DNA of 64,000 nt from Acidithiobacillus sulfuriphilus (lineage in GTDB: Bacteria > Pseudomonadota > Gammaproteobacteria > Acidithiobacillales > Acidithiobacillaceae): the NCBI RefSeq assembly GCF_003721225.1, contig NZ_RIZI01000195.1, positions 18,102 to 82,101 on the forward strand, written 5' to 3'. The notes under the pieces are model-generated. The model was not told the origin of the DNA. It ran no database searches and saw only the letters and a list, made by a program, of their open reading frames with translations. Made by a program: the position numbers and the translations under genes. Of this stretch, positions 3,073 to 17,492 are shown piece by piece; position 1 is the first letter of the stretch; every line of letters starts with the position of its first letter.

Positions 3073-5471
3073 TAGAGCAGGTAGCGGCGGCGAAGCCCTT
3101 CGAAGTCCTGCACCGCCCTGCGCCACCGCGCCGCGATGAGCCTGGGGTCTTCTCCCCTCTGGATAGCCGCCACGACCCACCGCGCGCCGACCATGCCCAG
3201 GATACGCCGCGTCTGGAATTTTTCCGGGTATAAGCGGGTGAGAGCGCTGGCGATTTCCACGCCGAGGGCCGGCGCGTCGAGGGCTTGGCGGTCGGCAAGG
3301 GCAACGCGCACACCGTGACACAGCCGCCCCTGGTAGCGGCTCGAACGGGGCGTAAAGGCCGCCGGCACGAACCGCACCCCTGGTATGTCCCTGTCATTCA
3401 GATACTGCGCAAGCTGTCCGGCGTCGATCCACGGCGCCCCGACCAATTCAAAGGGTGTGTCCGTCCCCCGCCCCACGCTCACATTGGCACCTTCGACCAG
3501 ACCCACGCCGGGATAAAGGGCGGTTTCCGCGAGCGTGCGCAAATTCGGCGACGGCGCAACCCAGCGGAGCCCCGTGTCGTCATACCAGTCTCTGCGCTGG
3601 TAGCCCCGCATGCGGATCACATGGAGATTGGCCCCCAGGTGGTCTTCGGCATTGAACATCTCGGCGAGCTCCCCGACGGTCATGCCATAGCGCACGGGAA
3701 GGGGGAAATAACCAGTGAAGGACTCCAGGTCGGCATCCAGGATGGGACCCTGCACGACATTCGCACCGATGGGATCCGGGCGGTCAAGGATGTAGAAAGG
3801 GATGCCGTATTTCGCCGCCGCCTGCATGGCATAGGCCATGGTGGTGATATAGGTGTAAAAGCGGGCCCCTGCATCCTGTACGTCGAAGACCAGCGCGTCG
3901 ATCCCCTGGAGCATTTCGCCCGTGGGCCGTCTGACGTTTCCGTAGAGGCTGTAGACGGGCAAGCCCAGGGATGGCTCCATGCCGGAGGCGACCTTTTCGT
4001 CCAAATCCCCATACAAGCCGTGTTCGGGACTGAATATGGCCACGAGTCTCACGCCCGGGGCCCTGGACAGCAGGTCGACCGTGCGGTTGCCATGGGCGTC
4101 AACCCCGGTCTGGTTCGTGATCAGGCCCACGCGCAGGCCCTTCAGGGGAGCGAAGCGTTCCGCCTCCAGGACATCCACGCCCACTTGCACCTTGCCCGCC
4201 GCGTATGCCTCGTTCAGCCCCGCATAATAGCGCCCAAGGAGGGGGCGGCTTGATACCACTTCAGCGTCGGTCAAGGGCGCGAGATGGGAAGATACCAGAT
4301 TGATCACCGCTTCCCTGAGAGGGCCGGCGTTGCCCTTGCCGAAGGGATAGACCCGGTTCGTCAGGATGATCACATAGGTCCCGGATACCGGGTCGATCCA
4401 CAGGAGCGTCCCGGTAAACCCGGTGTGATCATAGGCGCCCACCGGCAGGAGGTCTTTCCGGTTGGGGGCAAAAGGTGCGGCCAGATCCCAGCCCAGCCCG
4501 CGCAACCGCACTTTTCCGGGCGGGGATTGTGGGATGGTCATCCGCTCCACGATGGGGCGGTCCAATATCCGCACGCCGTGATAGCTTCCCCCGTCGAGAA
4601 GTGCTTGGGCAAAAACGGCGAGATCGCCGGCGGTGGAAAAGAGCCCGGCATGGCCCGAAACCCCTCCCATGCGGTAGGCCGTGGGATCATGCACCTCGCC
4701 CCAGCGCAGCTTGCCATCCAGGTATTCCGTGGGGGCGATGCGATATCGCTCCCAGGCGGGCGGATGAAAGGTGGTTTTCCCCATGCCCAGCGGCCCGAAG
4801 ATGTGCTTTGCGCAGTAGACATCGAGAGGTTCGCCGGAAACCCGCTGAACGATTTCGCCGAGGGCCTCGAAATTGATATCGCTGTACACATAACGGGTGC
4901 CGGGCGCAGCCACCGGCTTTTCCGCGATGATCGCCCGCAGCGCCCCCTGGGTACCGCTCCATGGCGTTTCCAGGTTGAGGTCGGGGGCTAGACCCGAATA
5001 ATGGGTGAGCAGCTCCCGCACGGTGATGGCTCCCTTGCCGTTCTCCCCAAAGGCCGGCCAGTATCTGGCCGCAGGGACGTCAAGCGCCAGCTTTCCCTGT
5101 TCCACGAGTTGCATCACCGCCGTGGTGGTGGCGACGACCTTGGTGAGGGAAGCCAGATCGAAAAGCGTCCCGACGGTCATGGGAATCTTTTCTGGCCCCG
5201 GCACGGCGTAGCCGAAGGCCTTGCGGTAGACGATCCGGCCTTCGTTGCCCACGAGTACGACAGCCCCCGGGATCCTGCCGGCCCGGATTTCCTTTTGAAC
5301 GATCTGCGCGATACCGGACAGATCCGCCCGCTGGAGACTTTCGGGGCCACCATCCGCCCGGGCGGACAAAATGCCCGTGCCCAGCAGGGCGGATAGCAGC
5401 AACGCCCATGCCGTCCCTTTCCCGATTAGCGCCCAAGCCGCGGCGCATCTTCCGCAATATTGCGTGAACAT
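3069..5471 (-). CDS. Serine hydrolase (beta-lactamase fold) fused to NamZ/DUF1343 domain
   Basis: An 800-residue exported protein with two enzyme domains. After a signal peptide (hydrophobic core about residues 20-36), residues 50-400 are a class C beta-lactamase/penicillin-binding-like serine hydrolase: S108-LT-K111 (SxxK), Y196-S-D (YxN-like) and H349-T-G (KTG-like). Residues about 430-800 match DUF1343/NamZ, an exo-beta-N-acetylmuramidase family, with the typical SPEHGLYGD and FDVQDAGARFYTYI stretches. NamZ enzymes release terminal MurNAc from peptidoglycan fragments, and AmpH-like serine hydrolases act on muropeptides, so a periplasmic peptidoglycan-recycling role is inferred. Its start overlaps the upstream gene by 46 nt; no other in-frame start precedes the signal sequence, so the overlap is probably real. 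Last gene of a three-gene operon. Confidence 0.88.
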   Translation of the reverse strand: MFTQYCGRCAAAWALIGKGTAWALLLSALLGTGILSARADGGPESLQRADLSGIAQIVQKEIRAGRIPGAVVLVGNEGRIVYRKAFGYAVPGPEKIPMTVGTLFDLASLTKVVATTTAVMQLVEQGKLALDVPAARYWPAFGENGKGAITVRELLTHYSGLAPDLNLETPWSGTQGALRAIIAEKPVAAPGTRYVYSDINFEALGEIVQRVSGEPLDVYCAKHIFGPLGMGKTTFHPPAWERYRIAPTEYLDGKLRWGEVHDPTAYRMGGVSGHAGLFSTAGDLAVFAQALLDGGSYHGVRILDRPIVERMTIPQSPPGKVRLRGLGWDLAAPFAPNRKDLLPVGAYDHTGFTGTLLWIDPVSGTYVIILTNRVYPFGKGNAGPLREAVINLVSSHLAPLTDAEVVSSRPLLGRYYAGLNEAYAAGKVQVGVDVLEAERFAPLKGLRVGLITNQTGVDAHGNRTVDLLSRAPGVRLVAIFSPEHGLYGDLDEKVASGMEPSLGLPVYSLYGNVRRPTGEMLQGIDALVFDVQDAGARFYTYITTMAYAMQAAAKYGIPFYILDRPDPIGANVVQGPILDADLESFTGYFPLPVRYGMTVGELAEMFNAEDHLGANLHVIRMRGYQRRDWYDDTGLRWVAPSPNLRTLAETALYPGVGLVEGANVSVGRGTDTPFELVGAPWIDAGQLAQYLNDRDIPGVRFVPAAFTPRSSRYQGRLCHGVRVALADRQALDAPALGVEIASALTRLYPEKFQTRRILGMVGARWVVAAIQRGEDPRLIAARWRRAVQDFEGLRRRYLLY

Positions 5472-6793
5472 GTTCCCGTCCCGATCCGTCCCAGGTTTCC
5501 CGGAGCCCCACCATGGCTATTCATCTCCATTCCCGGCTTTGGGGGGAGCCCTGCTGCAGTATAGACATTACGGGGGTTCCATAGCATCCAGCCATCCGCT
5601 CCGATGCTCTGCGCCGCATCGATCTGCGCCGCGATCTCTTCGCTCCCGAAGGGTTGCCCACCAAAGGCGTAGTCACGAAATGCCTGCAGCCAGGGGCGAA
5701 AGCGGACCGCAGGCAACCCCGTTCTCTCCTCGGCCTTGCGAAGCGAGAGGTAAACGATCTGGCGCGGATGGCGGACGGGATCGGGGTAGCCGGGGATACC
5801 GTACTGAAAACCAGAAGGATAGAGCATGGGAGAGATATAATCGACCTGCTGCGCCAGATCGTTCAGTCTCTGACCGATCCCCGTGTCGTTGCGGTTCCAG
5901 ATCACGTAACCAAAAATATCTGCGGAAAGAAAGACGTTGTAGGGCACCAGCCGCTTGCGGGCTGCCGCGAGAAATCCCGAAATTGCCGCAATTCTGTTCT
6001 TCTCGGTGTTCGGCTCCGAAAATACCAGACCCTTGGCATCGGGAAAGCGAACGTAGTCGAACTGGATCTCATCGAATCCATCCCTGGCGGCCTCAACGGC
6101 AATGTCGATGTTGTAGTCCCATACCTGCCTGGCGAAGGGATCGGTCCAGCCGATGCCTTCCCGATCCCTCCAGATGGCACCACTTGCGGTCCGCACCGCC
6201 CAATCCGGTCTCGCCAGCGCGAGGAGGTTGTCCTTGAAAACGACGATCCTGGCAATGGCATAGATGCCCTTCTTGTGCAAATCGTCTATCAGCCGCCTGA
6301 TATGTTTGATGGTGATGCCCTTTTGTGCCCCGATTTCCGCCGCCAGAGGAATGTCGGTCCGGTACGCTATCATCCCCCGGTCGCTTTTCACATCGATCAC
6401 CACGGCATTGAGGTCCGTCTTTCCGATGAGATCCAGGGCCGATTCCCGCAGGTGCATGTTGCCCGCTCCGTAGGAAGACAAATAAAGGGCCTTGGGCCGG
6501 AACGGCGCAAGGGATAGGGTTTCGCCCGTCTTGAGATCTCCCACGGGAATTTCGCTTCTCCCGTAGCCGTAAGCCCTGAGGCCCAGCACCGCCCCTTCCC
6601 CGCCAATCTGGAAATGACCATCCTGGCTGGTGCGCACAACCGTATCCCCCAAGGTCACGAAGGCTCCCGGGATCGGTTTGCATGTCAAGGCGTCCACTAC
6701 CGTCCCGTCGTAGGCGGCGGCGCTCCCAGGGACAAGCAACAGGACCGCAAGTAATGAAGCGCATATGTTCCTGAACTTTTGATAGCCCCCCAC
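5426..6793 (-). CDS. DUF4015-type putative glycoside hydrolase, exported
   Basis: A 455-residue protein with an N-terminal signal peptide (hydrophobic stretch LLAVLLLVPGSAAA). Next comes a short carboxypeptidase-regulatory-like beta domain (about residues 28-95), then a TIM-barrel-like region that matches the DUF4015 putative glycoside hydrolase family. Family features include the VVIDVKSDRG segment, FDEIQFDYVRFPD near the middle and ADGWMLWNPRN near the end. The substrate is unknown. It lies 12 nt after the polysaccharide deacetylase and overlaps the serine hydrolase/NamZ gene, so the three are probably co-transcribed and may act on one envelope or extracellular glycan. The C-terminal tail after residue 425 looks unstructured. 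Confidence 0.82.
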   Translation of the reverse strand: MGGYQKFRNICASLLAVLLLVPGSAAAYDGTVVDALTCKPIPGAFVTLGDTVVRTSQDGHFQIGGEGAVLGLRAYGYGRSEIPVGDLKTGETLSLAPFRPKALYLSSYGAGNMHLRESALDLIGKTDLNAVVIDVKSDRGMIAYRTDIPLAAEIGAQKGITIKHIRRLIDDLHKKGIYAIARIVVFKDNLLALARPDWAVRTASGAIWRDREGIGWTDPFARQVWDYNIDIAVEAARDGFDEIQFDYVRFPDAKGLVFSEPNTEKNRIAAISGFLAAARKRLVPYNVFLSADIFGYVIWNRNDTGIGQRLNDLAQQVDYISPMLYPSGFQYGIPGYPDPVRHPRQIVYLSLRKAEERTGLPAVRFRPWLQAFRDYAFGGQPFGSEEIAAQIDAAQSIGADGWMLWNPRNVYTAAGLPPKPGMEMNSHGGAPGNLGRIGTGTCSRNIAEDAPRLGR

Positions 6794-6805
6794 AACTCAC
6801 CTCGT

Positions 6806-7582
6806 TCATCTGGAATTCGTTTTCAGCAGCCTCCCGAAGGCCTTGCCCGCATCCTGGTCCGTGACCAGATAGCGCGGGAGCGCCATCACATCATCCGCCG
6901 GACCCGCCGGCGCCCTTACCATGGTGAAGGCGGCCACATACCCCGCCCCCGCGGCGTCCCTCATCAAGCCCTCATCATAGATCCCGTAGGGCCACGCGAG
7001 CATGTCCACCTTGATCCCCAATTCCTTGTCGAGCGTTGCCTTGGACCTTTCCAACTGCATGGCCACGAACTTCGCATACGCCTGAGGGGCAAGACGTTTT
7101 TTTTCCGTCCTGAAGTTCGGATGCCAGTAGGTATGGGATTGAATGTCCACGAGCCCCGAGTCGTGCATGGTCCTCAGTTCATCCCAAGTCAGGGCGTAGG
7201 ATGCCCGGGATATGGCGGAGGGATAGATGAACAGCGTCACCGGGATATGGTATCGCCGCACCAGGGGAAAGAGGTCCGTGTACACCGACTGGTGCCCGTC
7301 ATCCGCGGTGATCACCACGGAATGGGGAGGGGGCGGGGGTCCAATGCCGCGAATATAGGCCACGACCTCCTTGAGGGGGACGACCCGGTAACCATGGCTT
7401 CTCAGGTACTCAAGCTGAGCCGCGAAGACCGTCGTCCGAACGGTCATGGCATCCCGCGCCACGGGGCCAAAACGATGATAGAGCAGGATGGGCACAACAT
7501 GCTCCGTCCCCGATCCCCAAGCCGGCGCGGCGAAAAACACGGCGAGTAAAGGAATCCAGAAAATGGATCGCAGCTTGCCCAT
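6806..7582 (-). CDS. Exported polysaccharide deacetylase (NodB-like)
   Basis: A 258-residue protein with a clear signal peptide (residues 1-23) and a NodB-homology domain. Visible motifs are ILLYHRF at the start of the domain, the metal-binding pair D94-D95 in ITADDGH, H150-TYW-H154 as the HxxxH metal site, and LAWPYGIYD as motif 3. The family removes N- or O-acetyl groups from polysaccharides (peptidoglycan, PNAG, xylan); the substrate cannot be told from sequence. The layout resembles the deacetylase domain of PgaB/IcaB-like proteins. It is the first gene of an operon with a DUF4015 protein and a NamZ-fusion hydrolase. Upstream is about 300 bp without a gene. Confidence 0.88.
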   Translation of the reverse strand: MGKLRSIFWIPLLAVFFAAPAWGSGTEHVVPILLYHRFGPVARDAMTVRTTVFAAQLEYLRSHGYRVVPLKEVVAYIRGIGPPPPPHSVVITADDGHQSVYTDLFPLVRRYHIPVTLFIYPSAISRASYALTWDELRTMHDSGLVDIQSHTYWHPNFRTEKKRLAPQAYAKFVAMQLERSKATLDKELGIKVDMLAWPYGIYDEGLMRDAAGAGYVAAFTMVRAPAGPADDVMALPRYLVTDQDAGKAFGRLLKTNSR

Positions 7583-7879
7583 ACACGCCCTTTGCCAGAC
7601 AATACGCCGCCAGATCGGCTCCTGTTGTTCCTAGTTCAACACAGCCGAGGGCTCAGATCCAGCCTCTGGCAATATTCGGTAACCTTTGTCGCGCCCGATT
7701 CCGCCGGATCCAATCCCCCGCATCCAGCAAGGGTTGCCCCCAAGGACGCGACCCGGCAACCGCCATGAGAGGGTCCGGCGCTGGCCAGGGGCCAGTACGC
7801 CTAGCTAGCAGCGCACTATACCGGGTTCCAGGCTTGGCAGCGTTCCCTCAAACACGGTAGGCAGGGACCCATATTGCCC
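7583..7879. other. Intergenic region, no gene seen
   Basis: About 300 bp between the deacetylase start and an integrase remnant. It should contain the promoter of the minus-strand glycan operon. I see no convincing coding frame, RNA or repeat. Confidence 0.5.
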
Positions 7880-7990
7880 GGGATAAGATCTTCGTCGAGC
7901 AAAGACAGGACGCGCGCCCGACTGACGGCTTGGCGGTAGTCTCTACCGAGCGATTTTTTGATTTCGCGCTTGCCGACGGCGCCCAGATCC
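7880..7990 (-). pseudogene. Tyrosine integrase N-terminal remnant
   Basis: On the minus strand this stretch encodes GKREIKKSLGRDYRQAVS followed by RARVLSLLDEDL. This is nearly identical to the N-terminal region of the intact integrase at 13494-15215 (VGKREIKKSLGRDYRQAVSQ), and the DNA identity is also high. No start codon or downstream integrase sequence remains. It is what is left of an older integrase gene at this tRNA-Ser hot spot. The 5' part appears replaced by the ParDE control region. Confidence 0.85.
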
Positions 7991-8013
7991 TGGACTACTG
8001 TTCTCCCAAAGAG

Positions 8014-8028
8014 TAGGATTTAATCCTA
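8014..8028. promoter_or_regulatory. Palindromic operator upstream of parDE
   Basis: TAGGATT-T-AATCCTA is a perfect 7-bp inverted repeat with a one-base centre, 22 bp before the parD start. ParD-type antitoxins autoregulate by binding such sites with their ribbon-helix-helix N-terminus, so this is the likely operator. Inference from position and symmetry. Confidence 0.6.
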
Positions 8029-8050
8029 TCATGACGAATGGGAGCCAGCC

Positions 8051-8320
8051 ATGCGAACCACCCAGCAAATGAGCATTACCCTGCCCAACGACATGGCAGA
8101 TGCGGTGAAGGCCAAGGTACGCTCTGGCGAGTACGCCAGCGAGAGTGAAGTGATCCGGGACGGACTGCGGGCGCTGATGGCGCGGGATCGCGCCGTGGAA
8201 AACTGGCTATACAACCAGGTTGGTCCCGCTTATGACGCCTTAAAGGCGGATCCATCCCGCGCCGTCAGTGTTGACCAGGTGCGTGCCCGACTGGCCGCCG
8301 AACACGCCAAGACGCGATGA
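8051..8320 (+). CDS. parD: ParD-like antitoxin
   Basis: An 89-residue protein whose N-terminus (MSITLPNDMADAVKAKV, then SGEYASESEVIRDGLRAL) is a ribbon-helix-helix DNA-binding domain of the ParD/CopG type. The C-terminal half would wrap the toxin. It neutralises the toxin encoded next and probably represses the operon through the palindrome just upstream. Its stop overlaps the toxin start in ATGA, which indicates translational coupling. It sits between two integrase remnants, a usual place for a stabilising toxin-antitoxin pair on a mobile island. Confidence 0.9.
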   Translation: MRTTQQMSITLPNDMADAVKAKVRSGEYASESEVIRDGLRALMARDRAVENWLYNQVGPAYDALKADPSRAVSVDQVRARLAAEHAKTR

Positions 8321-8646
8321 GTTATCGCGTCGTATTCAGCCCGGAAGCCCAAGAACAACTTGCTGAGCTTTACCGCTATATCGCTGATACGGCGTCGCCA
8401 GATATTGCTGCGCAATGCACCGAAGCCATCGTGAGCTACTGCGAAAGTCTGTGCACGTTCCCCCTTCGCGGCACCATGCGCGATGACGTGAGGCCCGGTT
8501 TGCGCATCACCAACTACAAGGGGCGGGCAGTGATCGCCTTCGACGTGGACGCCGAGACGGTTTCCATTATCGGTGTCTTCTACGGCGGGCAGGGCTATGA
8601 AACGATCCTGCATGATGACCCGAACGACGACAGATCAGAACACTGA
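8317..8646 (+). CDS. parE: ParE/RelE-family toxin
   Basis: A 109-residue protein of the ParE/RelE fold. Family features are the N-terminal YRVVFSPEAQEQLAELYRYI strand-helix, the central GTMRDDVRPGLRITNYKGRAVIAF and the terminal VSIIGVFYGGQGYE. ParE toxins inhibit DNA gyrase, while RelE-like ones cut mRNA. The pairing with a ParD-type antitoxin favours ParE. The start overlaps parD by 4 nt. The gene appears intact. Confidence 0.9.
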   Translation: MSYRVVFSPEAQEQLAELYRYIADTASPDIAAQCTEAIVSYCESLCTFPLRGTMRDDVRPGLRITNYKGRAVIAFDVDAETVSIIGVFYGGQGYETILHDDPNDDRSEH

Positions 8647-8822
8647 GCCGCTTGACAGACGATTTTTCTTTTTTCGAGAACATCCGAGGATTTCGGTGAA
8701 CCCAGCGAGTACGTGGGCATATCCACTTTGCTGAAGCTCGCTGAGGATGGGCTGCTGTAGGGGGGGATCCATCACAGGATTTACTTACCCAATTTGGGCT
8801 TTATACAATAAAATCCAGTCAC

Positions 8823-9242
8823 TTACATCAGTGTAGGCGTGCATTTTTCAAGGGCCGGCAACGGTGTCCACGGGCGCCCCTCCACCAGCATCGCCCACTG
8901 TGCTGTGGAGAGTTCCACGGCGCCGGTATCGGCTCTGGGCCAGTGCAGTCGCCCCTGATCCAGACGGCGGTACAAGAGCCAGAAGCCCAGGCCATCCCAT
9001 GCCGAGGGAATCTCCGGCACTGAAAGGGGAGGCAGAGCCTGCAGGGTTTCGTCCACTTCCACCGCAAAGCGACGGGCCAGGCGCCCCGCCTCCCGGCGGT
9101 TTCCGGTACCCAGGGAAAAACGCAGATAGCCATTAGCCCCAACCTTCAGGGAGCCAGAGGCCAGCACCAGTTCAACACCTTTCAGAGAATCCGGGAGCTT
9201 GCGGGAAAAATGGAAGACCGCTCCCCGGCGAAGAAGATACAT
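8823..9242 (-). pseudogene. Chimeric remnant: integrase N-terminus joined to IS66 Orf2 C-terminus
   Basis: The reading frame from an ATG at 9242 starts like a DUF6538-type integrase N-terminus (MYLLRRGAVFHFSRKLP, then YLRFSLGTGNRREAGRLARRF). It then switches to the end of an IS66-family Orf2/TnpB protein (WDGLGFWLLYRRLDQGRLHW, then AQWAMLVEGRPW). The junction is near residues 75-80 counted from that ATG. The open frame runs further upstream to 9296, but homology starts at 9242. The start lies about 105 bp from the 17-bp tRNA repeat at 9347, the same spacing as the intact integrase has from its copy. This suggests a decayed second island inserted in tandem and later hit by an IS66 element. Function is not expected. 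Confidence 0.75.
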
Positions 9243-9346
9243 GGGTTCCTTGACCTCACTTTTAGCTACATTCCTAGCCACAGTGTCTAGTCTCAACCCA
9301 TTGAAATATAGTTTCTTTTATGGAAAATCAGAAACTTCTGAATGTA

Positions 9347-9363
9347 TGGCGGAGAGGGTGGGA
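9347..9363. repeat. Attachment-site repeat, tRNA-distal copy
   Basis: TGGCGGAGAGGGTGGGA matches the last 17 bases of the tRNA-Ser gene (15319-15335, including the CCA complement) exactly and in the same orientation. It marks the end of the island far from the tRNA. Confidence 0.85.
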
Positions 9364-9801
9364 CACTCCACGACTAATATATGTTCCTTGTTTAACAACA
9401 ACTTACAAAGAACCCGTTTTAGCTTTTTGTACCACCTCGTTGTACCAGAAATCCGGTCCAACACCGAAACGGAGTATAGTGCCCTTATGGCAACCATTTC
9501 AACCTCTGTGCTAAGACCTCTGTGCTAAGACCTTGGACCGAGCAGGGCGAAAATGCCCTGCTCGCCACCACATTCCCCATGTTGTATCATTGGACGGTGA
9601 TGCCGCTGTGAAGGAGTAACCATGAAACCTGACAGATCATGGAGCACGGCAGGCGGGCAAAGAGCACATGAGACTCTTTAGATACATGATGTCTTGTGTA
9701 TTATTGATTGATCTTCAAGCTTGAGACAGCCGCATTAGAAATATCATAAAATACCTTTATGTTAACCAGTGATTACTACATCACGATATATAAGGTGTAA
9801 A
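9364..9801. other. Island left-end non-coding region with tandem repeats
   Basis: AT-rich, no convincing gene. It contains GCTTTTTGTACCAC at 9422-9435 and TTGTACCA at 9440-9447, shared with the other island end. It also has a tandem 14-bp repeat CCTCTGTGCTAAGA at 9503-9516 and 9517-9530. A 19-codon frame after a strong AGGAG at about 9622 stops at once and looks like a gene stump. Confidence 0.55.
9540..9563. terminator. Hairpin, possible terminator
   Basis: GAGCAGGGC-GAAAAT-GCCCTGCTC forms a 9-bp perfect stem with a 6-base loop. No T-run follows, so terminator function is uncertain. Confidence 0.4.
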
Positions 9802-10371
9802 ATGACGACAAACCGCAAAAGGCGCAAGCCAAAAACAGAACCGTTGTCTTTTCTAGGTGTCCTGTTATTTTTGCTTGTGGTTTTTTTACTCACAAAATCT
9901 AGATCATTTTTATCATTGGTTGTCATCTTTGTAATAATGATAATTTCTTTATTCATCGCACGTTGGTACTGGAGATGCCGTCAAAAAAGCCAGATAAGGG
10001 CCGCTTTACTAACTGCTGGAACCACAAACCCGATGCAACTGACACCAGAGGAGTATGAAAGATTCTGTGCTGTACTGCTGGAAAACCATGGATGGCGGAC
10101 GGAACTGACAAAAAAGTCCGGGGATTATGGCGCAGACATCATAGCCAGCAATGGCAATCAACGCATGGTTATTCAATGTAAACAGTGGTCTAAATCTGTA
10201 GGGATTAAAGCTGTCCAGGAGGCGCATTCGGCAGGGGCATACTACAATGCAAGCATTGTTGCAGTAGTTGCAACAACAAAATACACACCAGCCGCCAAAG
10301 ATATGGCCAGAAGTATCGGGGTGCGACTATTGAGTCATAATAATTTAGCATCTGGAAATTTCAATGGCTAA
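9802..10371 (+). CDS. Membrane-anchored Mrr-like restriction endonuclease
   Basis: A 189-residue protein with two closely spaced hydrophobic helices near the N-terminus (about residues 18-36 and 41-58), followed by a PD-(D/E)xK nuclease domain of the Mrr_cat type. Visible motifs are LTPEEYERFCAVLLENHGW at the domain start, GDYGADII with the catalytic Asp, and VIQCKQW supplying QxK. Mrr domains cleave DNA, often modified or foreign DNA; with a membrane anchor it may act near the envelope. The ATG at 9802 has AAGGTG upstream and was preferred to a GTG at 9769. It overlaps the next gene by 8 nt. Strongly AT-rich compared with the host, so probably acquired cargo. Confidence 0.82.
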   Translation: MTTNRKRRKPKTEPLSFLGVLLFLLVVFLLTKSRSFLSLVVIFVIMIISLFIARWYWRCRQKSQIRAALLTAGTTNPMQLTPEEYERFCAVLLENHGWRTELTKKSGDYGADIIASNGNQRMVIQCKQWSKSVGIKAVQEAHSAGAYYNASIVAVVATTKYTPAAKDMARSIGVRLLSHNNLASGNFNG

Positions 10372-10696
10372 AAGAGGAAGAAAGAAGACGTCAAAAACCA
10401 TACTAAATCCTCGAGGAGATCCTCCAAGTGTATTAAAGCGAAAAAGAGGGCGTCGTAATAGAAATTCTCCGTGCTTCATAGCTACTGTCGTTTATGGTGA
10501 CTCATTAGCACCAGAGGTATTTGCATTGCGTAGGTTTCGCGATGAATTCCTTATGCCTTATAGGTTGGGGAAATTTGCAGTCTGGTACTACTATCGTTTT
10601 TCTCCACCTATTGCAAATTGGTTACTATATCATCCACGAATCGCAAGCCTAGTGCGCTACCCACTAAATTTAATAGCTCGGCATTACCAGGATTGA
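10364..10696 (+). CDS. CFI-box (CFI-CTERM-like) small protein
   Basis: A 110-residue protein. It has a very basic N-terminus (KRGRKKTSK, KRKRGRRNR) followed by a CFI-box domain: CFIATVVYGDSLAPEVFALR, then FRDEFLMPYRLGKFAVWYYY and PPIANWL. This domain is usually found as a C-terminal tail on unrelated proteins and its role is not established; it may be a membrane-associating or sorting tail. Here it is nearly the whole protein. The start overlaps the nuclease stop by 8 nt, and the signal-peptidase homologue follows after 25 nt, so the three are likely one transcription unit. Confidence 0.75.
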   Translation: MAKRGRKKTSKTILNPRGDPPSVLKRKRGRRNRNSPCFIATVVYGDSLAPEVFALRRFRDEFLMPYRLGKFAVWYYYRFSPPIANWLLYHPRIASLVRYPLNLIARHYQD

Positions 10697-10721
10697 TAAT
10701 GAAACAGCGAGTAACCGTCGA

Positions 10722-11345
10722 ATGAGTACAAGCGCAACCACAAAAACAATAAACCTCAAATCTGCGGTCATAATGGCAGCAGCATCGCTGCTACTTTTAC
10801 AAGCTAGTTACTCTTACGGCTGGGACCCTGTCTTCGTATCAAAAAAATCTGGGTCCATGTTACCTACAATAAAGCAAGGAAGCATGTTTGTCATAGGTCA
10901 TCCTGGGCGATACTCAAAAATATCTTCTGGCGATATGTTAGCCTTTTTTTATCCAAAAAACATAAAAGAAACATTCATTGATAGGGTTGTTGCTACCCCA
11001 GGAGAGGTTATCAAGATAAATGGTAATACTCTATACATAAATGGAAATTTAATCCCGCAAAAATATATCGGCACCTTTAACTATCGCCCGGAGGGGCAGG
11101 GTGCCGAGGGGATGGTTATCCCCACCAAAGAATATGAACAGGAACTGGGTGGTCATCATTTTCACATTATTGAGTTTGATACCCCGGAAGCGCAGATGAA
11201 CTTCGGGCCATACAAAGTACCAAATGATTGTTATTTTGTTATGGGTGACAATAGAGATAACGTTAATGATAGTAGGTTTTGGGGTTGCGTTCCGAAACAA
11301 AATATTTTAGGAAAAATACATTTATATAAGTTGAAGAAACAGTAA
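10722..11345 (+). CDS. Signal peptidase I (S26) homologue lacking the catalytic lysine
   Basis: A 207-residue protein with one N-terminal TM helix (about residues 13-30) and S26 family landmarks. The Ser box KSGSMLPTI is intact and the C-terminal box is VMGDNRDNVNDSRFWG. In active type I signal peptidases the general base is the Lys of IKRVVGLPGD; here the matching segment reads FIDRVVATPGE, with Asp in place of Lys. Cleavage by the usual Ser-Lys dyad is therefore doubtful. The housekeeping lepB is not in this window. It may have been repurposed to bind rather than cut, perhaps with the CFI-box protein upstream. AT-rich like its two neighbours. Confidence 0.85.
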   Translation: MSTSATTKTINLKSAVIMAAASLLLLQASYSYGWDPVFVSKKSGSMLPTIKQGSMFVIGHPGRYSKISSGDMLAFFYPKNIKETFIDRVVATPGEVIKINGNTLYINGNLIPQKYIGTFNYRPEGQGAEGMVIPTKEYEQELGGHHFHIIEFDTPEAQMNFGPYKVPNDCYFVMGDNRDNVNDSRFWGCVPKQNILGKIHLYKLKKQ

Positions 11346-11523
11346 AACAAAATGTAAATAAATGAAGGTTTCCTGAACACCATGTTCCTGGACACTTTTC
11401 GGCTCGTTTCGGTGGACCAAAGTGTTCGTTTACCCATCCAAATTTCAACGTTCAGAAAATCTTGGCCAAGAAGCCGTTGCTGGCCATCTGCCCCCGCGCC
11501 AACTAGATATCCGGCGCAGGGCC

Positions 11524-12432
11524 TCAGTCAGGTGGTGCTTCGACCTTGCTCGCGCGCGACTTGATCTGTTCCAGCTCGGCGCCCATACGGCGCACGCGCT
11601 CTGTCAGAGCAGATTCCGTAGCGGAAAGCCGTCTTCCTCTCCAGTTCTCGGGTGGAAACAGCAATGTCCCGACCTGTTCCAAACCATCCCAGCGGCCCCT
11701 TGCGGTCTGATGCGCGCTGTAAAGCTCAATGGCATCCTGCAGAGTGTCCGGCCAGCGTTCTTCATCGGCCACTCTTGACAGCCTTTGCGTCAGCGTGGCC
11801 CCCAGATGGTCTTCGGCAAAGTAGAGGCCGAGGCCGGTAAGATAAGTTTTTTCGCTGATCTGATACGGGCCCTGGCACGCCGCCGCCAGAGACCCCCGGA
11901 TGAACTGCAACAGCGCCTCGAAATCGGCCGTTTTCCGGCTGTGCGCTTCGACCTCGATCCATTGCAGTTCCGCGCCTTCATCATCAACGTGGAGGACCGC
12001 CCCATCCGGCATCTTTCCGGCAATAGTCAGCGCGGGCATGCGCCGGGTCAGGATCTCGAACTCCGTCCAAACCTGTGCGCCCTGTAGCATCTGGGTGATA
12101 AGAACATTGTTGGTGAGGCTCCGGTGCCGAACGTTTCCGAGGCGCAAATCCAGCCCCGACTTGGCGACGACCTGGGGCCTGAGCCCATTCAGGAAGGCGG
12201 CACCAGAAGGACGCAGCACGTAAGCAGACCCACCGCCATCGATGACCCGGCGTAGCAGGAGGCCCTTTTCCTGGGCTTTGCCGAGCAGCCGGTTGCCAAG
12301 CTTTCCACGGGTGCCTGATGAGCTGCACGGCCACAGCAGTCGGGTGATCTGGTCACGAGTGAGCCAGCCGAAGCGACTGACCGCTTCCAGGCCGTCCAAC
12401 AGGTTTTCTTGATGCTTTTGTAAAGTATCCAT
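11524..12432 (-). CDS. Replication-relaxation-like (MobC-type) protein
   Basis: A 302-residue protein. The N-terminal 100 residues look like a winged helix-turn-helix (LEAVSRFGWLTRDQITRLLW, then YVLRPSGAAFL), followed by a central region with IEVEAHSRKTADFEALLQFI. This resembles the replication-relaxation/MobC family found on plasmids and integrative elements, where it binds DNA during initiation or mobilisation. It lies beside a hairpin-rich non-coding region that could be its target. No relaxase gene is present on the island. Function is inferred from family resemblance only. Confidence 0.6.
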   Translation of the reverse strand: MDTLQKHQENLLDGLEAVSRFGWLTRDQITRLLWPCSSSGTRGKLGNRLLGKAQEKGLLLRRVIDGGGSAYVLRPSGAAFLNGLRPQVVAKSGLDLRLGNVRHRSLTNNVLITQMLQGAQVWTEFEILTRRMPALTIAGKMPDGAVLHVDDEGAELQWIEVEAHSRKTADFEALLQFIRGSLAAACQGPYQISEKTYLTGLGLYFAEDHLGATLTQRLSRVADEERWPDTLQDAIELYSAHQTARGRWDGLEQVGTLLFPPENWRGRRLSATESALTERVRRMGAELEQIKSRASKVEAPPD

Positions 12433-13065
12433 GCGCAGTATAGCGACCCCGCCCGCAGAGTGTGGCCATAAGTCGGCGTCGCGCGTGTTTGCACCTTGTG
12501 CGCCAGGTGGGGGCTATGTACCGACCCTGGCGCCTGTGGGTTCCGACCGCTCCCGCGCTCTACACCCATTGGGTATGACCACCTTCGGTGGCCATGACTA
12601 GGGGCAGGAAGCCAGGAAATACGGGGCTGAACGCCCCTATTTCCAGGCCAAGCGCTGCACGCGCTTGCCTGCCCCCTTTACAGCGGTCCCCCGGGCACTG
12701 CGCGCCCGGCGGCAACCCGCTCACACGGTGCCGCTGAACGCGCCACCGGCTTCGTCGCCTCCGGCTCCTCGGGTTCCGGCGCTGTGCGCCTACACCTGAG
12801 CAAGTTGCCCCCGGCCTTCGGCCCGGGGGACGGGGCTCCGCCCCCCGACTCAAAACCGGCACCTGGGGGTGCCTGGCCACACGGCTCCGCGCTGAACGCG
12901 CGTCGCTTCGTTGCGGCCTTTTGATCGGCGCCCCCCGGCCTCTGCCCGTTCCGCGCTGCACGCGCGAACCGTTCAGAGGGGTTCCGCAGGTCGGCTACGC
13001 CGCCCGCTGCACCCCGCACTTTCTCCCCAGTATCGGTAGCGCGGCTCCCCCAACTGAAATATTGT
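12433..13065. other. GC-rich hairpin-studded non-coding region
   Basis: About 630 bp with no believable gene; long frames exist but are Arg/Gly/Pro-rich artefacts. It carries at least eight compact hairpins. Examples: CCACC-TTC-GGTGG (12579-12591), GGGGC-TGAAC-GCCCC (12623-12637), AAGCGC-TGCAC-GCGCTT (12650-12666), CCGGGC/GCCCGG (12691-12709), GGCGC-TGT-GCGCC (12778-12790), a CCCCGGCC-TTC-GGCC type near 12807-12829, GGGGC-TCC-GCCCC near 12832 and GGCACC/GGTGCC near 12860. This may be a replication or transfer origin for the neighbouring replication-relaxation protein, or a structured RNA. Confidence 0.55.
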
Positions 13066-13109
13066 TGTGTGATACTCACGGCATGCTATAATGTGACTAT
13101 CACATTATG
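13066..13109 (+). promoter_or_regulatory. Promoter with overlapping palindromic operator
   Basis: A -35-like TTGTGT (13066-13071) and a perfect -10 TATAAT (13088-13093) are 16 bp apart. The -10 overlaps a perfect palindrome ATAATGTGA-CTA-TCACATTAT (13089-13109). A GTGATACTCACG element (13070-13081) overlaps the -35 and recurs, with one change, at the other end of the next gene. This arrangement suggests tight autorepression of the small gene at 13124. Confidence 0.65.
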
Positions 13110-13123
13110 CAGGAGTTTCACTC

Positions 13124-13366
13124 ATGCCCCGCCCACCCATACACCAGCAGCCAATGACCGCACGGGAGCGCAAACGGGAGCAGTACCAACGCGACCAGCG
13201 GGCGGTGACAGAAGCTATCGGCAATGAGGCTACAGCGCCCAACAAGGCACTCTTGAGCCTCATGGGCAAGGTGGACAAGCCAGAGTGGTCTGAGCGCGCC
13301 CAGATCGCCTGGGAGGCCTTTGGACGGCGTTATGGCTGGATACGTGACACTCACGATAAGATATAG
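13124..13366 (+). CDS. Small basic protein of unknown function on island
   Basis: An 80-residue protein, start preceded by GGAG. The N-terminal half is charged and helical (MTARERKREQYQRDQRA) and the C-terminal half holds WSERAQIAWEAFGRRYGW. I do not recognise the family. Its promoter overlaps a perfect palindrome, and its last codons and stop lie inside a large inverted repeat that shares a 12-base element with the promoter. A self-regulating DNA-binding or copy-control protein is a reasonable guess, not a demonstrated one. Confidence 0.6.
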   Translation: MPRPPIHQQPMTARERKREQYQRDQRAVTEAIGNEATAPNKALLSLMGKVDKPEWSERAQIAWEAFGRRYGWIRDTHDKI

Positions 13367-13380
13367 CGTGAGTGTCACGT
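13342..13380. repeat. 14-bp inverted repeat spanning the end of the 80-residue gene
   Basis: ACGTGACACTCACG (13342-13355) and CGTGAGTGTCACGT (13367-13380) are perfect complements around an 11-base loop that contains the stop codon. No T-run follows, so a protein-binding site seems more likely than a terminator. The core GTGACACTCACG matches GTGATACTCACG in the promoter at 13070-13081 with one mismatch. Confidence 0.7.
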
Positions 13381-13493
13381 TATGGTAAAAACCCTGTACC
13401 CCGCTAGATCGGCTTCAATCGCAGTTCCATGCGTACATGGTCACGGATTAAGGAGAGCTGAATCCAACCACTTGCCCGGCGTCGGCACAGCCT

Positions 13494-15215
13494 TCAGGGC
13501 ACACCATGGGGTGTGCCCTTCTGCAAGCGTTTTGCGCGTAGGGGATCAGAGACCGAAAGGCTTCCCGTAAAAGGCAGCGGTCGGGGAATCTCCAGTGGAA
13601 GCGTGATCTTCGCCATCTGCTCGAGCTTCACCTCCAGCGAATAGCCGTCGCCGTAATCGTCTCCCACGTTGCTGGCCTCGCCAAGATTGGAGTGGCCGGT
13701 CAGGGCGTGGTGTAGATCACGGGGGATCAAGGCATTGCGACAGAGGTCCTTAAAGCTATGGCGGAGTGAATGGAAAACCACTGTTTCAGGCATCGCCAAT
13801 TTGCCATGAATAAACCAACTAAACCATTTGCCCAGCAGCTCACTGTCTTCGTTGATCTTTCCCCGGCTACGCAGGAAGGGCCAAAGGGTGATATGTCCAG
13901 CGTTTCGGATGGCCTCGACATAGTCTAGAAAACCTAGTTCAATCAGTTTGGGATGTATCGGCACGTCCCGGATACTGGACTGATTTTTCGCGTGCAGAAT
14001 ACGGAAATGGGGCACGGGATCGAGTGATATATGGGATAGGGTGAGTTGGCCGATTTCGTTCAGCCTGGCGCCGGAATACAGACCCACCAGCGGCATCCAG
14101 ACGCGGGCATGGTAGCCTCCCCCACCTTTGCCATTGGTGACGCCAAAAAGCCCTTCGGGGGAGAAAATCCGGGTCAATTCCTCCATGGAAAAGGGGCGAC
14201 GCTCCTCCTCAGGGGCGATCCCTTCTTTGGCGGCAAAGCGGCGATAATCAAAGCCGGAGAAGGGGTTCTTGGGGAGCAGTTCATCTTTGACGGCGACGGA
14301 GAAGATCGCCCCTACCAAAGTGCCTTTCTTTTCCAGCGTCTTGGCGCTATTGCCGCGCTGGTCTCGTTCATGGCGCAACCACTCGGTGACCTGGGCGCGG
14401 GTCAGGGTGCTGGGAATAGCTTTGGGGACGAAAGCGGAAAGAGACTGCACCAGTCTTTGAATTTCATGGTCAGTGCGCGGCTTGCGTTCGCAATCCTGCC
14501 GCCAGTGCTTGAGCAAGGCTTCCCAGTTCAGGCCAGTGTCGGCTGGGGCTGGGGTGGGCTCCCAGACGGCGGGTAACGGGATGTTTTCCGTAGGGGAAAG
14601 TGCGGGCTGAACCAGCCGCCCGGCTTGCCGCTGGGCGAGAATGTCGTAGCCTTCCTGCAGGGCGGGCAGGACGTCGAGCACGAGGCGGCATTCTTCTTCG
14701 GGGGATACGGTCAGTTGATATCCCTTGCCCACTAAAAGGCCGTGTACCACCGGGAGAAAGGGTTCAGGTCGTCCACACGCCAGTGCTTTGGCGATCTCGG
14801 CCTGGACCTCGGCGATGTTTTTCTGGAGTTCCTGGTATTCCTCATCATCGATCCCTTCGCGGCGCCAAGTCAGGTCGGCATCCAGACTGGATAGCCACAG
14901 GGCGCGGAGCCCCGCTGCGAGTTCCGGCGTGACCGCGGTGATGGATTGCAGGCGTTGGTCTGGTGGACGGGCAATATAGCGCTGGAAGGCTTCGGCGTAT
15001 TCCATCTGCGGGGTGATCTGCTGCCGCAGAGCGTTGAATTGCTGGTCGGTCTGCAGGGACAAAAAACGGGCCTGGCTGACCGCCTGGCGGTAGTCTCTAC
15101 CGAGTGATTTCTTGATCTCGCGCTTGCCAACGGTCGGGCGCAGGGGTTCGGGGACAACAATGCGGAAGACAAATCCGTGGGGGGTCTTGTAGCAGTTGCT
15201 GGGCAGGGCGGGCAT
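13494..15215 (-). CDS. int: Tyrosine recombinase/integrase of the island
   Basis: A 573-residue phage-type integrase starting at MPALPSNCYKTPHGFVF; an in-frame start further up (15266) adds residues unlike the family. The N-terminal region binds arm sites; a core-binding SAM-like domain (TLTRAQVTEWLRHERDQ) precedes the catalytic domain. That domain holds the Arg in YSGARLNEIGQL, HSLRHSF (His-x-x-Arg-His), LTGHSN and the probable nucleophile Tyr in DDYGDGYSLEVKL. It would insert the island at the 3' end of tRNA-Ser, 104 bp from its start codon. A GGGCACACC/GGTGTGCCC hairpin overlaps the C-terminal codons (13497-13518). The gene appears intact. Confidence 0.93.
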   Translation of the reverse strand: MPALPSNCYKTPHGFVFRIVVPEPLRPTVGKREIKKSLGRDYRQAVSQARFLSLQTDQQFNALRQQITPQMEYAEAFQRYIARPPDQRLQSITAVTPELAAGLRALWLSSLDADLTWRREGIDDEEYQELQKNIAEVQAEIAKALACGRPEPFLPVVHGLLVGKGYQLTVSPEEECRLVLDVLPALQEGYDILAQRQAGRLVQPALSPTENIPLPAVWEPTPAPADTGLNWEALLKHWRQDCERKPRTDHEIQRLVQSLSAFVPKAIPSTLTRAQVTEWLRHERDQRGNSAKTLEKKGTLVGAIFSVAVKDELLPKNPFSGFDYRRFAAKEGIAPEEERRPFSMEELTRIFSPEGLFGVTNGKGGGGYHARVWMPLVGLYSGARLNEIGQLTLSHISLDPVPHFRILHAKNQSSIRDVPIHPKLIELGFLDYVEAIRNAGHITLWPFLRSRGKINEDSELLGKWFSWFIHGKLAMPETVVFHSLRHSFKDLCRNALIPRDLHHALTGHSNLGEASNVGDDYGDGYSLEVKLEQMAKITLPLEIPRPLPFTGSLSVSDPLRAKRLQKGTPHGVP

Positions 15216-15242
15216 CGCTTTCTCCTCGTCCACCTTGCTCCG

Positions 15243-15266
15243 TTTTGTACCGGCTTTTTGTACCAC
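15243..15266. repeat. Integrase arm-type repeats, tRNA-proximal end
   Basis: TTTTGTACC (15243-15251) and TTTTTGTACCAC (15255-15266) lie 53-76 bp inside the tRNA-side core. The 14-mer GCTTTTTGTACCAC (15253-15266) recurs exactly at 9422-9435, about 60 bp inside the other core. Likely integrase arm-binding sites. Confidence 0.6.
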
Positions 15267-15318
15267 TGAGCCTCCTGAATGCCTTGCTACACTTGGTATT
15301 CAGTATATTAGTACAAAT

Positions 15319-15409
<91 letters not shown>

Positions 15410-15512
15410 TTAGGCGGCGCAGTGTACCCCAGTGCCGCTGCTTCGGCAATCATCCCTTGCCTATCCAACTCCTACAAGTCCGGCAACGCCTTGTTGAAGG
15501 TCCCTTGTTTGC

Positions 15513-15866
15513 TCAGAAGGTGAGGACTTCCCGTGGCGCCGCTGGCGCATTCAGCAGTAGATTCTGAATACGGATCAGAACGCCGGAGCGGTCGTTGGTG
15601 AATTGCACGCCAATGCCGGGCGGGCGTCCCTCACGATTATCCGGCGGGGTCACCCACACCACCTTCCCCATTACCGGCGCCCGCGGTTGCCCGTCCGGCA
15701 AAGTGATCATCAGCAAGACATCGGCGCCAATCTTAAAGTGGTGGGGCGTCTCCACCAACACCGCGCCACCTTTGATGCGCGGCATGAAGTAGCGTTGCAC
15801 CGCATCCAGATCCCGCAGCACCACCGACAGGGCGCGCGCCGCCATGCTCTCAGGCCGATCGTCCAT
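15513..15866 (-). CDS. PilZ-domain protein
   Basis: A 117-residue PilZ-type protein, starting at MDDRPESMAAR and overlapping the end of holB by 17 nt. It contains PHHFKIGADVLLMITLPDG, GKVVWVTP and GIGVQFTND. The strict c-di-GMP motif RxxxR...DxSxxG is not complete, as in PilZ proteins that work in type IV pilus assembly. Its place after tmk and holB is the usual one for the pilus-biogenesis pilZ gene. Last gene of the long operon. Confidence 0.8.
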   Translation of the reverse strand: MDDRPESMAARALSVVLRDLDAVQRYFMPRIKGGAVLVETPHHFKIGADVLLMITLPDGQPRAPVMGKVVWVTPPDNREGRPPGIGVQFTNDRSGVLIRIQNLLLNAPAAPREVLTF

Positions 15867-16860
15867 GTTCCTCCGCCCTCCCTGCCCAGATGGCATACCA
15901 GGCAAAAATCATATCTTCCAATAGGATCAGTTGATTACGATTTTGTTTTAAAGTAACAGGTAATTTTCTCCATAAGGCTTCACAGCTCCATAATGCCCCC
16001 GGACTGGCGCTGCCGGCCAGGGACTGCAGCTTCGTTATATAGTCGTCATTGACCAGAGTTTCCACAAGACCCAGGCGCAGACGCAGCAAATCTTCGAGAA
16101 TGCTCAGGGCGATCTCCCGCAACACCGGCAGTGTCGCTGCCTTGCTCCAGCTTTCGGCAAGGGCCAGTGCAGCGCCGATACCCTCATGCGGCAAGGCCAG
16201 AAGCTGCGGGATCCATTGCTCCCGTTCCCGAAGGACACCGTCCTGCCAGGCTTGCCACGCCCACAGAGGACGGTCTCCGGCCCAACGCGCCAGACGCGCG
16301 GCAGCGCTCTCCGGCACGCCTTTTTCGCGCAGCCACTGCTGCGTTTCCGCGCGCCCGGCCAGACGCATGGGCAGGCGTTGCAGACGCGAACGGATGGTGG
16401 GCAAGAGGCGTGAAGGTGCCGCGCTCAGCAAGACTATGTGGGCGCGCGGCGGCGGCTCCTCCAGGGTTTTCAGAAAGGCGTTGGCGGCGGCGGGTGCCAG
16501 GGCTTCCGCCGGTTCCACGCGCAATACCCGCCGCGCGGCGATCTGCGGCGTATAGGATAAAAAATCGGCGGCGGCGCGAACCTGGTCGATGCTGATCAGC
16601 TTCCCCTCTTCCTCGGCCTGCAGGCGCAGCAGATCCGGATGCACCCCCTGCCTCTGCAGGATACAGGAACGACATTGGCCGCAGGCAGTCTGATCACTCC
16701 GGGGCGCGAGGCACAGCATGGCGTCGAGGAAAAGATCCGTCAGTTCCACCACGCCACTGCCCCAAGGGCCAACACAGAGCATGGATTGCGGCAATCCCCC
16801 CGCCAAGAGCGCGGCCAGGGGCGGCCAGGCCTCTGCGGCTTGGGGAATGGCGGAGATCAC
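15850..16860 (-). CDS. holB: DNA polymerase III delta' subunit
   Basis: A 336-residue clamp-loader subunit. The GTG at 16860 overlaps the tmk stop (GTGA). The frame continues further upstream, but those residues are only tmk read out of frame. It has a zinc module (CGQCRSC with GVHPDLL after it), the delta'-type AAA+ fold with a degenerate P-loop (VGPWGSGVVEL, no GKT) and ANAFLKTLEEPP. The SRC motif is changed to SRLQRL. It acts in the clamp-loader complex that opens the beta clamp. Position between tmk and pilZ is typical. Confidence 0.9.
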   Translation of the reverse strand: MISAIPQAAEAWPPLAALLAGGLPQSMLCVGPWGSGVVELTDLFLDAMLCLAPRSDQTACGQCRSCILQRQGVHPDLLRLQAEEEGKLISIDQVRAAADFLSYTPQIAARRVLRVEPAEALAPAAANAFLKTLEEPPPRAHIVLLSAAPSRLLPTIRSRLQRLPMRLAGRAETQQWLREKGVPESAAARLARWAGDRPLWAWQAWQDGVLREREQWIPQLLALPHEGIGAALALAESWSKAATLPVLREIALSILEDLLRLRLGLVETLVNDDYITKLQSLAGSASPGALWSCEALWRKLPVTLKQNRNQLILLEDMIFAWYAIWAGRAEEHGRSA

Positions 16861-17492
16861 CCGCACCCCAGGGCCTCTGCGAGGCACTGGGCTATTTGCC
16901 CATGGACCAGGTCCAGGGGCAATTCGGCGTCGATCCGGATGATGCGTGCAGGTTCCTCCTGCCAGCGCTGGGCAAAGACCGCGCGGGCGCGATGGAAAAA
17001 GGCAGAATCCTCCCTTTCGACGCGATCGGGGTGCCGGGAAAGGGTCCTTTGCCGGCCCAGATCCGGGCTGATATCCAGCCAGAAGGTCAAATCGGGCTGA
17101 CGCTGGATGCCCGCCCACGCGGACAAGGCATGGATACGCGCCAAGGGCACTCCCCGCCCGCCCCCCTGGTAGGCATAGGTGGAATCTTCAAAGCGGTCAC
17201 AAAGCAGCACCCGACCCCGGGCCAGGGCGGGCAGAATTTTTTCATAGAGGTGTTCCCGCCGGGCCGCATAGAGCAGCAGCAATTCGCTATCGGCGGCAAT
17301 GGCCAGGTCGGGGTTCAGGAAGATCGGGCGCAGGGCCTCTCCCAATGGGGAACCGCCGGGTTCCCGTGTCACTTCGACGGGATAACCGCGCTCCTCCAGC
17401 CAGTTGGCGATAAAGGCAACGGCTGTGCTCTTGCCCGCGCCCTCGATACCCTCCAGGGTGAGGAAGAAAGCGCGATTAGGGCGTGGCGGCAT
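16857..17492 (-). CDS. tmk: Thymidylate kinase
   Basis: A 211-residue enzyme that phosphorylates dTMP to dTDP. It has the P-loop EGIEGAGKST near residue 15, TREPGG for dTMP binding and the DRFEDSTYAYQG segment. The start MPPRPNR at 17492 overlaps the mltG stop by 17 nt and begins 14 residues before the P-loop motif; earlier starts lack family residues. Overlaps holB by 4 nt. Confidence 0.93.
   Translation of the reverse strand: MPPRPNRAFFLTLEGIEGAGKSTAVAFIANWLEERGYPVEVTREPGGSPLGEALRPIFLNPDLAIAADSELLLLYAARREHLYEKILPALARGRVLLCDRFEDSTYAYQGGGRGVPLARIHALSAWAGIQRQPDLTFWLDISPDLGRQRTLSRHPDRVEREDSAFFHRARAVFAQRWQEEPARIIRIDAELPLDLVHGQIAQCLAEALGCG

Follow-up and report, generated by a model that had tools for sequence, protein, structure and literature searches.

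We identify a membrane-anchored Mrr-type nuclease and a small protein that is almost only a CFI box as partners in a gene pair found in three genomes of the Acidithiobacillaceae. We lean toward a reading in which this two-gene Mrr–CFI nuclease module is the functional unit of the locus, carried as cargo by a 6-kb integrative element in tRNA-Ser, with the adjoining gene for an S26 (signal peptidase I-like) protein lying outside the unit. The three open reading frames lie intact on one strand of the 64,000-nucleotide stretch of DNA that was analyzed (the window), with the CFI frame overlapping the Mrr frame by 8 nt and the S26-like frame beginning after a gap of 25 nt (Table 1). Their GC content (Mrr 0.43, CFI 0.42, S26-like 0.39, compared with 0.60 for the window) bears out the description of three packed AT-rich genes in the sequence-only reading. 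The source genome is a 2.8-Mb draft in 194 contigs. The sole match of an Rfam scan was tRNA, and predicted promoter-like sites (10, compared with 5.1 in shuffles) and terminator-like sites (4, compared with 2.5) reveal nothing decisive about transcription.

Table 1. Coordinates of features in the window and at two related loci (L082 and L083)
Feature	Positions	Strand	Remarks
Mrr-type PD-(D/E)XK nuclease, membrane-anchored (P0001)	9802..10371	+	189 aa; hydrophobic N-terminal region and Mrr_cat at residues 79–183
CFI-box protein (P0002)	10364..10696	+	110 aa; basic N-terminus MAKRGRKKT and CFI_box_CTERM helical domain
Mosaic S26 (signal peptidase I-like) protein (P0003)	10722..11345	+	207 aa; Ser45 present, Asp87 at the position of the catalytic Lys
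Segment of the S26 gene resembling Acidithiobacillaceae lepB	11022..11294	+	residues 101–191
Integrative element in tRNA-Ser(GGA)	9347..15335		5989 bp (6.0 kb); bounded by an exact 17-bp direct repeat
Distal att repeat	9347..9363	+	exact 17-bp repeat
tRNA-proximal att repeat (3′ end of tRNA-Ser)	15319..15335	+	exact 17-bp repeat
tRNA-Ser(GGA)	15319..15409	-	integration target
DUF6538-type tyrosine integrase	13494..15266	-	590 aa; DUF6538 47.2 bits; Phage_integrase 19.9 bits, under the Pfam cutoff
Weakly Replic_Relax-like protein	11524..12432	-	16.7 bits, under the Pfam cutoff
LysR-type regulator at L082	L082:7725-8816		3.8 kb downstream of the pair
LysR-type regulator at L083	L083:1634-2836		about 2.5 kb upstream of the pair, on the other strand

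The Mrr-type nuclease and its CFI-box partner

P0001 matches the Mrr catalytic domain (PF04471) with 91.5 bits against a cutoff of 21 and has an intact active site (GDYGADII...VIQCK), with residues D108, D112, Q125 and K127 invariant with P0007 and P0010. Its N-terminal hydrophobic region forms one merged peak at residues 35–53, counted as two helices at another threshold, and the earlier designation as a membrane-anchored Mrr nuclease holds. No separate N-terminal DNA-recognition domain was detected in P0001, for which PF04471, PF22722 and PF13156, all of restriction-endonuclease type, are the only matches above the Pfam cutoff; E. coli Mrr has a separate domain of this kind. Scans for Zorya (ZorD) or another PADLOC system gave P0001 matches that cover the Mrr part alone and none for the CFI protein, the S26-like protein or three other scanned proteins. 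A three-row Mrr profile had no match among PDB sequences at E ≤ 0.01, phage records gave ten weak Mrr matches, and the term Mrr is absent from the main text of a paper on defense systems in the related F. caldus (PMC12375680). Two Acidiphilium plasmid loci (L217 and L218) carry membrane-Mrr genes that are 44–51% identical to P0001 and lie near AbiEii genes; the L217 gene also adjoins HipA, and neither locus has a CFI profile match.

The partner protein P0002 matches the curated NCBIfam family CFI_box_CTERM (NF041770), which has members in bacteria and archaea, with 77.4 bits against a cutoff of 40, and since this match spans residues 37–101 of 110 aa, the view that the protein is almost only a CFI box proved accurate. 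All nine residues of its N-terminus MAKRGRKKT are identical in the three family proteins. An AlphaFold model places four helices in residues 38–109, with pLDDT 85–92 from residue 41 and pTM 0.55. Across 99 CFI sequences the invariant positions are C37, F38, A40, T41, R59, Y76 and P81, the first four of which were favored by the search because CFIAT belonged to the search pattern. The CFI profile had no match among PDB sequences, and a literature search under 'CFI-box' or the motif 'CFIATA' returned no paper in the PMC collection searched.

A search of 57 genomes with the CFI protein gave six that match. The small CFI protein occurs in 3 of 29 Acidithiobacillaceae genomes (G000, G024 and G010), and in all three a related Mrr gene lies directly upstream in unchanged order, with 51–55% identity to the Mrr protein and 54–60% identity to the CFI protein of the window across two genera. 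This adjacency, together with the fusions described below, supports the proposal that Mrr and CFI belong together. We also scanned a three-sequence CFI alignment against contigs of 84,980 species genomes, which gave 114 relatives, and kept the best 80, each with at most 6 kb on either side (a full 12 kb at 35 of the 80 loci, and less than 6.3 kb at 11). Among these best 80 of 114 loci, just two, from Acidithiobacillus clean429 (L082) and from A. montserratensis (L083), have a separate Mrr gene beside CFI, and the proteins of L082 and L083 are identical to those of G024 and G010.

Protein comparison of window positions 3801–17400 with L082 and L083 revealed only the Mrr–CFI pair in common. L082 and L083 additionally share a LysR-type regulator (77% identity over 327 aa) on opposite sides of the pair (Table 1), and the two loci may therefore be insertions in one region, so that we count two clearly different contexts and not three. 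A TOTE primase-helicase conflict gene lies upstream of the pair in L082, and the surroundings of L083 contain transposase-like remains, recognized by eye, and exported proteins. The gene after the pair in L082 (L082:4046-4477) starts with MANRGPKKTPVTVFN, a near copy of the CFI N-terminus, and continues into unrelated lipoprotein-like sequence, which suggests recombination at the start of the CFI gene.

Mrr_cat and the CFI box also occur fused in one protein, in 4 members (L106, L107, L115 and L138) of an 85-protein CFI set that is biased toward relatives of P0002. To P0002 and the small proteins of its two relatives, this set adds L162, 76 of the 78 remaining genome-contig loci (L130 and L154 were dropped because of their length) and, for five of those loci, a second CFI frame. 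The L115 and L138 fusions keep the catalytic motif; recognizable catalytic residues have apparently been lost from the other two (L106 and L107), which both come from Thermoplasmata and may not be independent. Inspection by eye found no obvious defense neighbors of the archaeal Mrr–CFI fusions. A neighbor of the L115 fusion that looked SIR2-like by eye had no Pfam or PADLOC match, and we do not assign it to that family. Mrr matches are present in 79 of 398 Pseudomonadota genomes, and CFI stood beside Mrr at none of the best 29 non-own loci from other Pseudomonadota (about 1.5 kb examined on each side), at none of 9 further loci of the family, among which L018 matches the N-terminal part only, and at none of 4 plasmid loci. 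The nuclease type is thus common and, at the loci examined, mostly without a CFI neighbor, with CFI an added partner in one lineage.

From these observations we infer a defense role for the Mrr–CFI pair. Counted in favor of the module are the Mrr–CFI fusions, the intact Mrr site, the TOTE gene at one relative and AbiEii near plasmid Mrr homologs; counted against it are that the separate-gene pair is known in three genomes of one family and that most Mrr relatives have no CFI neighbor. The N-terminal hydrophobic helices would hold Mrr at the inner membrane with its catalytic domain in the cytoplasm, and CFI, which is predicted to form a small domain of four helices behind a strongly basic N-terminal tail, would be translated together with Mrr, whose frame it overlaps by 8 nt here. 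CFI is probably an adaptor or regulator of Mrr that may, for example, bring foreign DNA to the nuclease or restrain it, and the pair would probably act close to the membrane by cutting plasmid or phage DNA as it enters the cell. We likewise infer the Mrr topology, which we read by the positive-inside rule from the N-terminus and linker, as well as a physical Mrr–CFI interaction and the DNA target.

An integrative element in tRNA-Ser and a mosaic S26-like gene

An exact 17-bp sequence from the 3′ terminus of tRNA-Ser(GGA) is repeated directly at the two borders of the element that holds the locus, and the gene for a tyrosine integrase lies immediately inward of the tRNA (Table 1). Allowing up to 3 mismatches, the repeat has 4 matches in the window compared with 0.36 expected, 2 of them exact, and the exact repeat has 3 copies genome-wide, the third at the end of a tRNA-Ser(CGA). 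An integrase beside a tRNA gene and a repeated tRNA 3′ end are the features by which integrative elements in tRNA genes are recognized, and of the earlier description of a young integrative island, 'integrative' is confirmed by the repeat and the integrase and 'young' is not sustained. The only plasmid sequence that the island DNA matched is the integrase of an A. caldus plasmid, at 66.5% over 10% of the query.

To the left of the island, window positions 7891–9296 hold the remains of a second, related integrase, including an 81-nt piece 81% identical to 15053–15133, a 31-residue match at 77% and a hybrid frame (8823–9296) that joins DUF6538 to IS66 TnpB. These remains indicate that the integration site may have been used repeatedly. 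A ParD/ParE toxin–antitoxin pair lies just outside the island at window positions 8051–8646.

P0003 is a recognizable S26 protein (Peptidase_S26 111 bits; TIGR02227 112.6 bits against a cutoff of 47) in which the change of active site noted earlier is evident: Ser45 is present in an SGSM box, and Asp87 occupies the position of the catalytic Lys, which is K in 28 of 28 family LepBs, 14 of 14 outgroup LepBs and four plasmid LepBs. A working catalytic dyad is therefore unlikely on sequence grounds. The predicted structure has an S26-like fold at moderate confidence (pLDDT 66.7).

We compared P0003 with the LepB proteins of 28 family genomes, the source genome included, and 14 outgroup LepBs (13 and that of L100); the 29th family LepB, from L050, was omitted owing to masked bases. 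Residues 101–168 of P0003 show a median of 85% identity to family LepB and 20.5% to outgroups, and L025 LepB gives the same two values. By contrast, residues 43–100 of P0003 show 38% to family LepB and 36.5% to outgroups, where L025 LepB has medians of 95% and 56%. A best-segment scan delimited residues 101–191, where 78 of 91 columns agree with the consensus of the family, compared with 26 of 66 elsewhere, a result reached by 0 of 500 column permutations, in a control that ignores correlation between neighboring columns. The lepB-like stretch at 101–191 beside the divergent stretch at 43–100 identifies the S26 gene as a mosaic.

Outside the window, the best match to the N-terminal half of P0003 in 229 class genomes has an E value of 2.2e-6 and 37% identity; plasmids gave three weak matches and phage records none. 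Synonymous sites of the graft are near saturation, and its GC3 of 0.47 is within the LepB range. These values are compatible both with a recent capture from an unsampled species and with an older capture under purifying selection. With its catalytic Lys lost and a stretch of lepB incorporated, the S26 protein offers a clear example, in nature, of grafting within a mobile island.

Alternative explanations of the locus

Two overlapping genes on mobile DNA, one of which encodes a small basic protein, would also suit a toxin–antidote pair, in which Mrr is a toxic nuclease and CFI an inhibitor that together keep the island in the cell. Fusion of Mrr and CFI in a single polypeptide elsewhere and related Mrr genes that do without CFI (no CFI neighbor at 38 loci) fit an accessory CFI better than an essential antidote, and we therefore regard this arrangement as rather unlikely. 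Also doubtful is that Mrr and CFI are unlinked cargo, neighbors through shared mobile history only. The separate pair is found in one family only, and both relatives have a LysR gene near the pair and may share an insertion region, as such a history would predict; yet the pair has been kept in two genera at 51–60% identity while the flanks in the window share nothing else with the relatives, and Mrr–CFI fusions exist in distant lineages.

The sequence-only reading had instead proposed a three-gene envelope system, in which a non-cleaving S26-like protein binds or senses the CFI tail and controls the nuclease. The three genes do share one strand and a similar AT-rich composition, the S26-like gene follows CFI after the short gap, and its product is still S26-like in predicted fold. 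However, we found no conserved Mrr–CFI–S26 set beyond the source strain, although the two-gene pair does recur: neither of the other two Mrr–CFI loci (L082 and L083) has a LepB-type gene, and a LepB profile matched at just one of the best 80 of 114 CFI loci, L100, where an ordinary LepB that has its Lys is encoded 1.6 kb away from CFI on the other strand. The proposed check of co-occurrence over genomes thus came out for Mrr with CFI and against S26 as a third member. The S26 domain would moreover be periplasmic and the nuclease cytoplasmic, as judged from their sequences, and the central part of P0003 matches family LepB. Sensing of the CFI tail by S26 is unsupported, given its absence from the other two pairs and its mosaic make-up, and we consider a three-gene system highly improbable. 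Assembly error is a very unlikely source of the mosaic. The assembly is a draft in 194 contigs and the graft resembles the lepB of an Acidithiobacillus species, as a chimera might, but the reading frame runs on across both joins, the grafted stretch sits at the homologous position, its best identity to 29 lepB loci is only about 77% over 266 nt, and the genome has an intact lepB of its own on a different contig (L051). Under the two-gene Mrr–CFI reading that we prefer, the S26 gene would be a passenger or a locally recruited gene, a hybrid in which part of a relative's lepB is joined to a divergent S26 protein, a combination so far seen here only.

CFI boxes on other proteins and comparison with known systems

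Pfam analysis of the 85 CFI proteins found a cold-shock domain in 11, among the 25 most frequent families listed, and VRR_NUC–CFI fusions in 3 (L133, L136 and L140). Two more are dynamin-like: in L097, two adjoining genes (L097:2738-6240) encode dynamin-like GTPases with Sel1 repeats, and a CFI box ends each. An archaeal protein (L150:818-1588), scanned singly, joins a Thoeris ThsB-like TIR domain to a C-terminal CFI box. CFI boxes are found as well on proteins with fibronectin, propeller, Ig-like, HEAT and reprolysin domains, many of them secreted, and the CFI box is thus not a defense marker. A link to retrons was rejected: the effector model of retron Se72 has matches (E ≤ 0.001) in 12 of the 85 CFI proteins, but the five that we examined score 29.6–51.7 against a cutoff of 82 bits and match through the cold-shock domain only. 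Scans of viral contigs with P0003, P0001 and A2 found no relative, and a scan with A1 found one CFI-box locus (L162). Plasmids contribute 37 CFI records, and the surroundings of two of these had no Mrr or LepB profile match.

As a tentative broader reading, the CFI box may serve as a general-purpose adaptor or sensor attached to nucleases (Mrr and VRR-NUC) and to TIR, dynamin-like and cold-shock proteins of both bacteria and archaea; the family pair would then be a split form in which a separately encoded adaptor recruits or licenses a membrane-tethered nuclease. The lead of greater interest is the linkage of the CFI box to nucleases and to TIR, dynamin and cold-shock domains. Mrr with a near-bare CFI box is a natural two-gene split and a minimal system for testing CFI function directly, and should CFI prove to control the nuclease, it may also control the other effectors to which it is fused.

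Several known families resemble parts of this locus. P0003 shares with LepB of the Acidithiobacillaceae the S26 fold, Ser45 and residues 101–191, but is divergent at residues 43–100, has Asp in place of Lys and, by eye in the alignment, is without the first membrane helix and a near-C-terminal stretch. Like other Mrr-type (type IV restriction) nucleases of PF04471, P0001 has an Mrr_cat domain with an intact D...QxK motif; unlike them, it is short, has an N-terminal membrane segment and a CFI-box partner, and no separate methyl-DNA-binding domain was detected in it. The same layout, with a membrane helix ahead of a cytosolic PD-(D/E)XK domain, occurs in the membrane-anchored family COG4741, described by its authors as a possible membrane guardian against foreign DNA (PMC1189080), but that family is a different, YraN-like nuclease, and the excerpted text of its description mentions no CFI partner. 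P0002 passes the CFI_box_CTERM cutoff, yet in most of the 85 aligned proteins the box forms the C-terminal end of a larger protein, whereas here it is nearly the whole protein and a separate gene beside Mrr. The CFI box differs from effector-associated domains in being C-terminal and in occurring also on secreted proteins, and it goes unnamed in the excerpted account of those domains (PMC8195603). The adaptor or sensor role proposed for it is nonetheless akin to theirs, as small domains attached to diverse effectors, for example nucleases and TIR.
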